Of a stretch of DNA of 64,000 bases, positions 9,137 to 14,750 are shown piece after piece (within the stretch, counting starts at the first letter, position 1; each line of letters opens with the position of its first letter). The notes beneath the pieces are model-generated. The model was not told the DNA's origin and did not search any database. It saw nothing but the letters and a program-made list of their open reading frames with translations. Made by a program: the position numbers and the translations under genes. Source of the stretch: Deltaproteobacteria bacterium (GTDB lineage: Bacteria > Myxococcota_A > UBA796 > GCA-2862545); contig SBGP01000056.1 of assembly GCA_006226595.1 (NCBI GenBank), positions 1 to 64,000 of the forward strand, read 5' to 3'.

Positions 9137-10390
9137 CTACTTGGCGACGAGCTCCAGGGCGACCTCTCCGGTGGTGGAGGGACGGAACTCGTAGGCTCCC
9201 TGCCCGTGCTCGTGGTGATCGAGGCCCTGCTCCTCCTCCTCGGCCGTCACCCGAAGGCCGAGGGTCGCCTTGATGGCTCGGAAGAGCAGCGCCGAGGACG
9301 GCACACAGAAGGCGGCGGTGGCGAGTACACCGACCAGCTGCGCCCCGAAGGACTTGTCCGCCGCGAAGATGCCGACGGCGAGGGTTCCCCAGATGCCGCA
9401 TACGAGGTGCACGGGCACCGCGCTCACGACGTCGTCGACGCCGATGCGGTCCATGCCCTTGGTGGCGAGCAGCGCGAGCACGCCACTGATGGCGCCGATG
9501 AGCACCGCGTCCATCGGACCGACGACGTCGGCACCGGCGGTGACGCCGACGAGACCGGCGAGCGCACCGTTGAGCGCCATGGACAGGTCCGGCTTCTTGT
9601 CGACGATCCAGGAGGTGATGGCGCCGGCCATGACACCCGCCGCCGCGGCGAGCGAGGTGGTGACGACGACCAGGCTCACGGCCGCGGGGTCCGCGGAGAG
9701 CACGGAGCCGCCGTTGAAGCCGTACCAGCCGAACCACAGCAGGAGCACGCCGATGGCGGCGAGCGGCAAGCTGTGGGGGTTGGCCTCACCGCGCTGCTTG
9801 GCGAGGCGCGGCCCGAGGATGATCACGCCGACGAGCGCGGCCCAGCCACCGACCGAGTGCACCAGGGTCGACCCGGCGAAGTCGTGGAAGCCGTACTCCT
9901 TGAGCCAGCCGCCGCCCCAGTGCCACATGCCGACGATGGGGTAGACGGTGGCGACGTAGATCGACGCGAAGGTCAGGAAGGACTCGAGCTTGATCCGCTC
10001 GGCCACCGCGCCGGACACGATGGTGGCGGCGGTGGCGGCGAACATCGCCTGGAAGATGAAGTCGGTCCAGTAGGTGTAGTGGCCCTCGGCGTAGCCGATG
10101 CCGAGGCCCGCGGCGTCCGTGGAGATGCCGAAGCCCGCGAAGCCGAAGAAGCCGCCGGCGTACTCCGCTCCCGGGTACATGAGGTTGAACCCGACCGCGG
10201 CGTAGGTCAGCAGGCCGATCGACAGAACCGTGAGGTTCTTGAACAGCACGTTCACGGTGTTCTTGGACTGGGCGAGCCCGCTCTCGAGCACGGCGAAACC
10301 GAGATGCATCACGAACACCAGGAAGGCGGCGACAAGCATCCAGATGTTGTTCACCCAGAACAGGACCTCGGCAGACGAGGGATCGGACAT
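9137..10390 (-). CDS. amt: Ammonium transporter Amt/AmtB
   Basis: A 417-aa polytopic inner-membrane ammonium channel with eleven expected helices. The twin pore histidines are kept: His178 in FAGSTLVHSVGG and His328 in VPVHLVCGIWG. Other family marks are A-V-L-E-S-G in helix I and W-F-G-W-Y-G-F-N-G-G. There is no long signal peptide. The C-terminal cytosolic tail carries a run of Glu and a H-H-E-H stretch; the GlnK-docking part looks conventional but a glnK gene is not adjacent. ATG with GGAGG upstream. A sigma54 promoter lies 29-43 bp upstream, and the divergent neighbour encodes a sigma54 activator, so expression is presumably nitrogen-controlled. Confidence 0.97.
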   Translation of the reverse strand: MSDPSSAEVLFWVNNIWMLVAAFLVFVMHLGFAVLESGLAQSKNTVNVLFKNLTVLSIGLLTYAAVGFNLMYPGAEYAGGFFGFAGFGISTDAAGLGIGYAEGHYTYWTDFIFQAMFAATAATIVSGAVAERIKLESFLTFASIYVATVYPIVGMWHWGGGWLKEYGFHDFAGSTLVHSVGGWAALVGVIILGPRLAKQRGEANPHSLPLAAIGVLLLWFGWYGFNGGSVLSADPAAVSLVVVTTSLAAAAGVMAGAITSWIVDKKPDLSMALNGALAGLVGVTAGADVVGPMDAVLIGAISGVLALLATKGMDRIGVDDVVSAVPVHLVCGIWGTLAVGIFAADKSFGAQLVGVLATAAFCVPSSALLFRAIKATLGLRVTAEEEEQGLDHHEHGQGAYEFRPSTTGEVALELVAK

Positions 10391-10418
10391 AGGTACCTCC
10401 ACGTGGCCGGGCACCAAC

Positions 10419-10433
10419 GCAAGAGGCGTGCCA
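10419..10433 (-). promoter_or_regulatory. Sigma54 (RpoN) promoter of amt
   Basis: Read on the minus strand this is TGGCAC-GCCTC-TTGC, which matches the -24/-12 consensus TGGCACG-N4-TTGC at every position except the base after TGGCAC being counted in the spacer. The -12 element ends 29 bp from the amt ATG, leaving a short leader. The placement fits dependence on the divergent activator. Confidence 0.82.
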
Positions 10434-10555
10434 GCCCCCTGCTCCATCGCGAGACACCCGACGGAAGCCCGCGTGGCAGCGTGGCTTTCTCTGCGTGAGG
10501 ACCGGCGACGAGGACCACTCGTCACGCGAGCGACACTGAACAGCGCCTCATTTCC

Positions 10556-10598
10556 GACATTTTTGTAGCCGCATGCCCCTGGGACGACATTTATGTTG
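10556..10598. promoter_or_regulatory. Tandem ACA-N4-TGT dyads, putative enhancer sites for amt
   Basis: Two related sites, GACATTTTTGTAG (10556-10568) and GACATTTATGTTG (10586-10598), have centres 30 bp apart, i.e. on the same helical face. They lie about 125-165 bp upstream of the amt sigma54 promoter, a normal distance for an activator enhancer. The motif is not the NifA site TGT-N10-ACA. Confidence 0.58.
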
Positions 10599-10688
10599 GA
10601 AATGCACATCGCAGGACCGAAAAGCCCGACCACGGGCTACTTTTCATCCATCGTGAAGCGACCTCACCGGATTTCATCACTCTACGAC

Positions 10689-10711: not shown

Positions 10712-12187
<1,476 letters not shown>

Positions 12188-12237
12188 GACACGCCCCGAC
12201 CGAGGCCATGCGATAGCCTCGGGCCGCAGGAGCACGC

Positions 12238-14337
12238 GTGCAGAACCGCTGGGTCCACCCGCCGACCCTCCACATGCCGGGCAGTGGCCACCCACGACGC
12301 GTGGGATGGCTCGAGCTGTTCTACGACCTGATCTACGTCGCCACCATCCTGCAGCTCGGCACCACGCTGTCGGAGCGCGTGACCTTCGACGGCTTCCTCG
12401 CGTTCGCCGGGCTGTTCACCCCGCTGTGGTTGTCGTGGCGCAGCTTCACGCTGTACAGCAACCGCTTCGTCGTCGACGACCTGCGTCACCGAGCCATGGT
12501 GTTCACGCAGATGGCGGGCATCGGCATGATGGCGGTCACCGTGCCGCAGGTGCTCGAGGGCGAGCCGTCGGGCTTCGTCGCCGCGTATGGCCTCGTGCTC
12601 GTCATCCACTCGCTGTTCTACGTGCGCGTGTGGCGGACCGTGGACGAGGCCCGGGAGCTCGGGCAGCTCTACGCCTCGGTCCACGGCGTGCGGGCCGCGC
12701 TGTGGTGGGCTTCGCTGCTCGTACCCACCCCGTGGAACTACGCGATGTGGGTGCTCGCCGTCACCATCGGCATCGGCGCGACCTTCTCGCGCCAGGCCCG
12801 AGAGCTCGGCGGCCGCTTTCCCAACGACTTTATCCACCTCTCCGAGCGCTACGGCCTGCTGACGCTGATCGTGCTCGGCGAGTCGTTCATGAAGGTGCTC
12901 ACCGCCCTGTACGAGCAGGGGGTGGACTCCCAGAACGGACTGATGGCCGGCCTCGGACTGCTCGTCACCTGCGGCCTGTGGTGGCTGTACTTCGACGACA
13001 TCGCAGGCAGCCGGCTCAAGCGCACGCGACTCGCGTCCGTGGTGTGGACCTGGGCGCACCTGCCGCTGACCATCGGCATCACCGCCGTCGGTGTGTCGAT
13101 CAAGAAGGTCACCTTCTTCGAGCCCATGGAGCCGGCGAAGGCCGCGTACGGCTGGTTGTTCGCGGGCAGCGTGGCGCTGGTGTTCCTCACCGTCGGCGCG
13201 CTCGACAGCGTGACCGAGCGGCGGACCGGCGAGACCAGCGACCAGCAGCGCTCGCGGATGCGGCTGTTCTCGGCCCTGCTCGCCGGCCTGCTCGCCGCCG
13301 TCGCCCCGCAGATGAGCGCGCTCGTGTTCGTGTCGCTGATCGCCTTCCTGATGCTGGTGCAGGTGTTCTTCGACCTGTGGATGGCGCCTCTCGCCGACCC
13401 CGAGGCGGTGCACCACGAGGACCCGACCTTCTTCGCGGGTGCCCCCGCGTCCGCCGCCGCGCCCGAGCCCACCGCCAACCGCAAGCGGATGGCGATCAGC
13501 CTCGACCAGGCGGTGCGCAAGGGCGTGCCGAACGACCTGCGCAGCGACCTGTTCTACCTGTTCCTCGATCGGAGCTGGGGCGCGCTATTCACGGCGATGG
13601 TGGCCGCCTTCGTGCTCTCGAACGCGGTGTTCGCCGCCCTGTTCCTGCTCGAGCCCGAGGGCGTCACCGGCCTCGAGCGCGCGCAGTTCGTCGAGGCCTT
13701 CGCGTTCTCGGTCCAGACGATGACGACCATCGGCTACGGCGGGTTGTCCCCGGTGAGCACCTACGCGCACGTGCTCGTGTGGGTCGAGGCCTTCGCCGGC
13801 CTCGTCGGCACCGCCCTGTTCACGGGCCTCGCGCTCGCCAAGGCCGCACGCCCGAACATGAAGGCGCTGTTCAGCCGGGTGGCGGTGATTCGCCAGCTCG
13901 ACGGCAAGCGCACGCTGTGCTTCCGCGTGGGCAATGCTCGCGGAAACGAGATCGTCGAGGCCTCGATGAACGTCGCCGCGCTTGTCGACGTCGTCACCGA
14001 GGAGGGCGCCACCTTCCGTCGGCTGGTCGATCTGCCGCTGGTCCGTCGCTTCTCGCCCATGTTCGCCCTCACGTGGAGCGTGTTCCACGTCATCGACGAG
14101 GACAGTCCGCTCGCGCCGCTCACCGACGGCGAGATTCACGAGAGCCTCGCCGGCATCATCTGCACCATGACCGGCCACGACGGCACCTACGGCCAGACCG
14201 TGCACGCTCGCCACGTGTACCAGAGCGACGACATCCTCGATCAGCACGTGTTCGTCGACGTGATCAGCAGGCTGCCCGACGGTCGGCTCCAGGTCGACTT
14301 CACGCGCTTCCACGACGTCCGGCCGGAGACGGCGTGA
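12238..14337 (+). CDS. LtrA-KirBac fusion: low-temperature-requirement A domain plus inward-rectifier K+ channel
   Basis: One uninterrupted 699-aa frame with two membrane modules. Residues 20-390 match the LtrA family (PF06772): the W-L-E-L-F-Y-D-L motif at 24-31, LSERYGLLTLIVLGES at 201-216 and about ten hydrophobic helices. After a charged Ala/Pro linker (390-430), residues 435-540 form a two-helix pore with selectivity filter TTIGYGG (496-502). Residues 540-695 follow the KirBac cytoplasmic immunoglobulin-like domain (L-F-S-R-V-A-V-I, then F-R-V-G-N-A-R-G-N). The GTG start has AGGAG six bases upstream. The downstream gene overlaps by four bases. A K+ channel gated by, or coupled to, the LtrA part is inference; LtrA function is itself unclear. 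Confidence 0.85.
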   Translation: MQNRWVHPPTLHMPGSGHPRRVGWLELFYDLIYVATILQLGTTLSERVTFDGFLAFAGLFTPLWLSWRSFTLYSNRFVVDDLRHRAMVFTQMAGIGMMAVTVPQVLEGEPSGFVAAYGLVLVIHSLFYVRVWRTVDEARELGQLYASVHGVRAALWWASLLVPTPWNYAMWVLAVTIGIGATFSRQARELGGRFPNDFIHLSERYGLLTLIVLGESFMKVLTALYEQGVDSQNGLMAGLGLLVTCGLWWLYFDDIAGSRLKRTRLASVVWTWAHLPLTIGITAVGVSIKKVTFFEPMEPAKAAYGWLFAGSVALVFLTVGALDSVTERRTGETSDQQRSRMRLFSALLAGLLAAVAPQMSALVFVSLIAFLMLVQVFFDLWMAPLADPEAVHHEDPTFFAGAPASAAAPEPTANRKRMAISLDQAVRKGVPNDLRSDLFYLFLDRSWGALFTAMVAAFVLSNAVFAALFLLEPEGVTGLERAQFVEAFAFSVQTMTTIGYGGLSPVSTYAHVLVWVEAFAGLVGTALFTGLALAKAARPNMKALFSRVAVIRQLDGKRTLCFRVGNARGNEIVEASMNVAALVDVVTEEGATFRRLVDLPLVRRFSPMFALTWSVFHVIDEDSPLAPLTDGEIHESLAGIICTMTGHDGTYGQTVHARHVYQSDDILDQHVFVDVISRLPDGRLQVDFTRFHDVRPETA

Positions 14338-14750
14338 GCCTGGACGACGCCTTCGCCGCCCCCGAAGAGGTGGCCGAGGCTCCACTGCCGGTGGGCGTGC
14401 GCGTCGCCCAGGTCACCTTGCTCTTCGTGGGGCTGACCTACCTGACCTTCGCCATCGGACTCACGCCGATGATGGTGGCGATGCCGTTCTTCGACCCGGA
14501 GCTGAGTCGCGAACCCGACGAGCTCAAGTGGGCGTTTGGTGGCTTCATGGGCCTGTTCACCTTCGTGTGCACCGGGACCTACGCCCTGCTGCCCCTGCTT
14601 GGCGTGTTCGGGCTCCAGCGGCGCGCGATGTGGGGCTGGCTGATCGGCGTCATCCTCGGCGCCATGCTCACCCCCTCGGCGTGCGCCCCGTTCGGACTCG
14701 CCATCCTCTGGGGACTCTTCGTCGAGGACACCCGCAAGATCTACCTGTAG
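14334..14750 (+). CDS. Small integral membrane protein coupled to the LtrA-KirBac gene
   Basis: I do not recognise this 138-aa protein. Its GTG overlaps the stop of the channel gene (GTGA), so it is translationally coupled. After an acidic N-terminus (about 25 residues) there are three to four hydrophobic segments (roughly 28-52, 68-92 and 98-130) and a short basic C-terminus. The tight coupling suggests an accessory subunit or a membrane protein needed at the same stoichiometry as the channel (inference). It ends 19 nt before the convergent MORN gene. Confidence 0.7.
   Translation: MSLDDAFAAPEEVAEAPLPVGVRVAQVTLLFVGLTYLTFAIGLTPMMVAMPFFDPELSREPDELKWAFGGFMGLFTFVCTGTYALLPLLGVFGLQRRAMWGWLIGVILGAMLTPSACAPFGLAILWGLFVEDTRKIYL

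Follow-up and report, generated by a model that had tools for sequence, protein, structure and literature searches.

The window analysed here, a 64,000-nucleotide stretch of contig SBGP01000056.1 from a deltaproteobacterium, contains a gene that joins an LtrA domain to a complete KirBac-type potassium channel in one chain. This fusion is a real, conserved channel architecture and is apparently undescribed in the literature that we searched. The source bacterium is presumably a soil or water dweller. The gene lies on the forward strand at 12238–14337, starts with GTG and encodes 699 amino acids plus a stop, with no internal stop in the frame; an AGGAG sequence is found at 12228–12232, five bases 5' of the start codon. 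An initial annotation, made from the sequence alone, had read LtrA and a complete KirBac channel in this one continuous frame, and indeed Pfam finds both halves, with profile matches in the regions assigned to LtrA (residues 20–390) and to Kir (435–695). The motifs that it named were also located, WLELFYDL at residues 24–31, LSERYGL at 201–207 and TIGYG at 497–501.

By profile, the N-terminal half is LtrA (PF06772). The match covers residues 21–374 with E = 2.3e-73 and 247.9 bits against a cut-off of 31.9, and spans positions 1–353 of the 356 in the model, that is, essentially its full length. All core charged and aromatic residues of the family are kept in the fusion. LtrA is widespread in bacteria and archaea, and a typical member is a stand-alone protein of about 390–400 amino acids, whereas the fused clade stands apart in the tree and has invariant residues of its own (F217, D254 and D323, in 25/25). 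The name goes back to a reported requirement for LtrA during low-temperature growth in Listeria (cited in PMC5491136); this cold-growth phenotype and expression data are all that the searched open-access literature holds on the family. In six proteins from Acidobacteria and Acidimicrobiales MAGs (L058, L059, L090, L094, L096 and L114), which form one starred clade, the C-terminal end of LtrA is joined to a zf-UBP zinc finger (PF02148, with E values as low as 4e-12). The Kir and zf-UBP fusions are alike in having LtrA as an N-terminal membrane module that is followed by a cytoplasmic partner.

Every sequence feature that we tested places the C-terminal half in the KirBac family, and channel activity is predicted for it. 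The slide helix, TM1, pore loop and TM2 occupy residues 436–539 (13543–13854), followed by the immunoglobulin-like cytoplasmic domain of Kir channels at residues 544–694 (13867–14319). Pfam assigned Ion_trans_2 to residues 464–530 (E = 5e-9), the IRK transmembrane profile to 436–539 (E = 1.5e-6) and IRK_C (PF17655) to 544–694 (E = 1.1e-20), and a sequence search of solved proteins returned KirBac1.1 (387–696, E = 2.7e-61) and KirBac3.1 (436–695, E about 1e-57) as the best relatives. In structural comparisons, the membrane part scored Z 22–23 to KirBac3.1 and the cytoplasmic domain Z of about 20 to the cytoplasmic domains of Kir2.1 and GIRK1. The NirBac paper describes modular changes to the Kir pore loop, and neither an N-terminal nor any other extra domain came up in a text search of it. 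With KirBac1.1 and KirBac3.1 the fused Kir half shares about 38–39% identity in structural alignment, the slide helix, the TM1–P-loop–TM2 arrangement with a T-x-G-Y/F-G filter and the C-terminal IRK_C domain, but these two channels stand alone, whereas in the fusion the slide helix is preceded by 385 residues of a second polytopic domain and a linker. The filter itself, TIGYG at residues 497–501 (13726–13740), is intact as [TS][IVL]G[YF]G in 25/25 fused relatives, and the pore helix reads SVQT, a sequence shared with most of the sampled relatives that stand alone. In two fused channels, L010 and L039, GFG replaces GYG (TVGFG and TIGFG, respectively).

The WLELFYD motif of LtrA (residues 24–30; 12307–12327) is one that we take to resemble the pore-helix motif RLEAFSD of TMEM175 (PF06736), the Parkinson-linked protein that forms lysosomal and bacterial K+/H+ channels, and we therefore tested whether LtrA shares the TMEM175 fold. 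AlphaFold2 modelled LtrA alone with a pLDDT of 94.3 and a pTM of 0.92 (62 sequences), as two successive groups of six long helices. This model aligned to human TMEM175 with Z 26.5 and an rmsd of 3.9 over about 340 residues; ten human TMEM175 entries scored Z 20–26.5, while the first unrelated chain scored Z 9.7, and the bacterial MtTMEM175, which has one repeat, reached up to Z 12.7. Foldseek gave the same pairing with E 4e-4, probability 1.0 and TM about 0.6. The whole-protein model (mean pLDDT 89.9, pTM 0.66, 68 sequences) fell below a pLDDT of 50 at residues 389–418 only, and in it residues 22–383 matched human TMEM175 (6w8n) with Z 25.6 and rmsd 3.7 over 329 residues, and residues 436–699 matched KirBac3.1 with Z 23. 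As modelled, then, the LtrA domain (residues 21–383; 12298–13386), with its 12 predicted transmembrane helices (2 x 6), has the TMEM175 fold, including the two six-helix repeats of the human protein. Lysine and arginine make up 18% of its predicted cytoplasmic loops versus 2.6% of the periplasmic loops across the 25 fusions, a bias that puts both LtrA ends in the cytoplasm, the placement that the Kir slide helix calls for.

In sequence, the two families do not find each other. PF06736 was unmatched by the fusion protein to E 1 and unmatched anywhere in its genome, the LtrA profile had no match among the sequences of solved structures to E 10, and hhalign detected no similarity of LtrA to TMEM175, whether 7 or 28 TMEM175 sequences were used. 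Likewise, comparing the profiles of the two halves of LtrA did not detect an internal repeat, although the order of the helices shows one. Since the fold match comes without a sequence match, we limit our claim to a shared fold; common descent of LtrA and TMEM175 is likely.

The structural alignments begin at LtrA residues 22/23 opposite human TMEM175 residues 33/34, which places W24–D30 opposite R35–D41, in register with RMLSFSD (35–41) of the human protein. Among 62 LtrA sequences (25 fused and 37 stand-alone), W24, E26, D30, W67, D80, R85, H200, R204, W248, W249, Y251 and H274 are invariant in 62/62. In MtTMEM175, the Asp of the FSD motif touches a helix-2 Trp as well as the motif Arg from a neighbouring subunit (PMC7176437). 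LtrA has in common with TMEM175 the register of the pore-helix motif with its invariant Asp, the invariant TM2 Trp (W67) and, in repeat II, the motif Arg, where invariant R204 aligns with human R260. However, in TMEM175 each repeat opens with a helix that carries an R-x3-FSD motif, and this was absent from LtrA, where the motif is split: WLELFYD in repeat I keeps the Phe and Asp and lacks the Arg and Ser, and repeat II keeps Arg204 and lacks F-S-D. The loss of Arg from repeat I and of Asp from repeat II would fit retention of just one Arg–Asp contact per repeat pair.

The gate of human TMEM175 consists of Ile46 and Ile271 (PMC7141809), and by the motif register this isoleucine gate is absent from TM1 and TM7 of LtrA. 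The Ile46 position is occupied by Ala35 in 24/25 fusions and by Val or Ala in stand-alone LtrA. The Ile271 position, in the TM7 motif R204...G214-E215-S-F-x-K219 (12847–12894), is Glu215 in 60/62 sequences, the register in repeat II being a motif alignment, not a residue-level superposition. A Lys four residues on completes an E215–K219 pair in 22/25 fusions compared to 11/37 stand-alone LtrA sequences. Two diverged fused LtrA domains, L014 and L048, have lost E215 (Ala and Ser, respectively); L048 also lacks K219, and its LtrA core may be non-functional. On the model, the LtrA core is charged where that of TMEM175 is hydrophobic, and with Ala and Glu replacing the isoleucine gate LtrA probably gates otherwise than TMEM175. 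Because most of the TMEM175 pore residues are lost, conduction by LtrA is doubtful, and as LtrA departs from TMEM175 in sequence, FSD motif and gate, we would not assign it to that family.

A fusion in a single draft genome, here one of 117 contigs, could stem from misassembly or be a gene on its way to decay into two unrelated parts, and we examined its recurrence. A whole-protein search of 94 related genomes found full-length fusions in 12 genomes beyond the window's own, all from the same order or class, and partial fusions at contig ends; identity to the window protein over the whole length is 70% in the congener and 37–52% in the other genomes. A wider collection of named genomes (MAGs) added 12 further distinct full-length fusions, for a total of 25. 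By record title the hosts are Myxococcota (Polyangia, Polyangiaceae, Kofleriaceae), and MAGs labelled by their depositors as Acidobacteriota, Holophagae, Verrucomicrobia and Bdellovibrionales. Both halves are complete across the 25 proteins, and the gap between the LtrA and Kir profile matches is 31–47 amino acids in all relatives. Both halves are under purifying selection in the comparison of the window gene with its congener (dN/dS 0.36 for LtrA and 0.33 for Kir). The recurrence of the same fusion in independent assemblies thus refutes an origin by chance, misassembly or decay, to which we give practically no credence, and the purifying selection and the grouping of each half into one clade argue against it as well.

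In a tree of 62 LtrA domains, a single branch (SH-aLRT 97, starred) separates the 25 fused ones from the rest, and the 25 fused Kir domains form one group (99, starred) in a tree of 52 Kir domains that takes in stand-alone Kir genes of the same genomes and KirBac1.1; both trees were built by a quick method, and each drew one long-branch warning. Pairwise distances of the LtrA and Kir halves correlate (r = 0.68). With one clade in each half's own tree, there was probably a single old fusion followed by joint inheritance, and transfer of the fusion between phyla is possible. The distribution is patchy, with the LtrA part in 15/71 genomes sampled from the class, and the fused gene was the sole IRK_C gene found in 9/10 named genomes checked. 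The window's own genome has a second, stand-alone Kir gene (L162, at G000 contig C29:12134-12934), whose product is 41% identical to the fused one.

Lastly, we looked at the genes around the fusion. The initial annotation had proposed a coupled 138-amino-acid membrane protein as a third part of the system. The ORF exists (14334–14750, overlapping the fusion stop by four nucleotides, GTGA), but no relative was found at any other fusion locus, the congener's included, and we rejected it as a component: diverged copies of the family occur in 15/94 relatives elsewhere in the genome, as in G001, where the 138-amino-acid relative is on contig C123 and the fusion on C38. A second copy of this family, which is of unknown function, is present in the window's own genome (C109). 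Directly upstream of the fusion is a gene for a GAF and sigma-54 activator protein with an HTH_8 domain (10712–12187, forward strand), and as other fusion loci lack a close relative it was also dismissed as a linked regulator. It adjoins a divergent ammonium transporter gene (9137–10633, minus strand), which it possibly regulates. No gene family recurred at the fusion loci beyond one close sister pair, and in the absence of a conserved neighbour the fusion looks like a self-contained unit. A survey of up to 8 kb around 57 LtrA genes that stand alone found no unfused Kir gene, so that neighbourhood offers no independent functional link between the two domains.

How might such a protein work? 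The explanation that we prefer, with about even credence, is a KirBac K+ pore whose flux is tuned by a covalently tethered TMEM175-fold LtrA domain that senses or moves protons or other cations. The protein would be a single inner-membrane protein with the LtrA module placed on the cytoplasmic N-terminus of the channel, so that LtrA, with both ends predicted to be cytoplasmic, would hand its C-terminus to the Kir slide helix. The Kir part would tetramerise to form one K+ pore, and four LtrA domains, most likely as two TMEM175-like dimers, would surround it. The charged TM1/TM7 core of LtrA (E215, K219, D30, R204) might respond to or conduct protons or another cation, and this response would tune or accompany K+ flux through the Kir pore. 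The cytoplasmic linker (residues 384–435; 13387–13542), with about 40–50 predicted disordered residues (pLDDT <50 at 389–418) that vary in sequence among the fusions, makes rigid mechanical coupling unlikely; coupling would instead act by proximity, by local ion or voltage changes or through contacts with the slide helix. Whether LtrA helices pack on the pore was a point raised by the initial annotation, and the structure prediction that it called for was run: with a pTM of 0.66 for the whole protein as against 0.92 for LtrA alone, the monomer model gives no confident packing. Our data are compatible with its suggestion of LtrA as a sensor, a transporter or a subunit that regulates K+ flux, which the TMEM175 fold sharpens into a role that we still infer. 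By analogy, in the KATP channel (Kir6 with SUR) a Kir tetramer is likewise combined with a large polytopic membrane partner, but SUR is an ABC protein in its own right and has an unrelated fold, whereas here the partner is covalently attached and its regulatory role putative.

The pH determines whether TMEM175 passes K+ or H+ (PMC11792109), and the main rival to tuning is therefore a paired H+/K+ path, in which an LtrA dimer would conduct protons or cations while K+ flows the other way through Kir, as a charge-balanced shunt with no gating of Kir by LtrA. We regard this as a minority possibility. The predicted TMEM175 fold and the pH-dependent conduction of TMEM175 (PMC11792109) speak for it, as do the acidic residue in a pore-lining helix, E215 in 60/62 sequences, which could carry protons, and the disordered linker, which fits co-localisation better than mechanical gating. 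However, the Ile46/Ile271 gate that sets the K+ selectivity of TMEM175 is replaced by Ala/Val and Glu, changes of the human gate residues to Ala, Val, Leu or Phe are non-functional (PMC7141809), and E215–K219 pairing, seen in 22/25 fusions, may close the core. The disordered, variable linker and the low confidence in the relative placement of the domains would also be consistent with LtrA serving as a passive membrane anchor or as an assembly or trafficking module of an otherwise ordinary KirBac channel. We consider this rather unlikely, since the core residues of LtrA, none of which an inert anchor would need, are as conserved in the fusions as in stand-alone LtrA, and dN/dS is similar for the two halves.

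The initial annotation knew of no description of this combination, and the searched literature bears it out: we found nothing that links KirBac to LtrA and no paper that deals with TMEM175 and LtrA together in the open-access literature, and no open-access paper with the Pfam or COG numbers of LtrA and TMEM175 together. Again, the structures and literature examined held no TMEM175 fused to a P-loop channel. A bolder reading, to which we give somewhat less than even odds, is that LtrA proteins are a large unrecognised branch of the TMEM175 fold with a charged core, one of them fused here to KirBac as a single-chain proton- or cation-controlled K+ channel. If true, two unrelated K+-channel architectures are combined in one chain, and the known ways to build K+ channels would grow to include a P-loop channel joined to a channel-type fold without a P-loop. 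Of greater weight than the fusion may be the LtrA fold itself, which opens an old question to testing: a family with a name but no known mechanism would receive its first concrete biochemical hypothesis, as an H+/cation channel, transporter or sensor, with the Kir half as a built-in readout of what the LtrA half does. For TMEM175, LtrA would represent a distant variant from nature whose gate differs.
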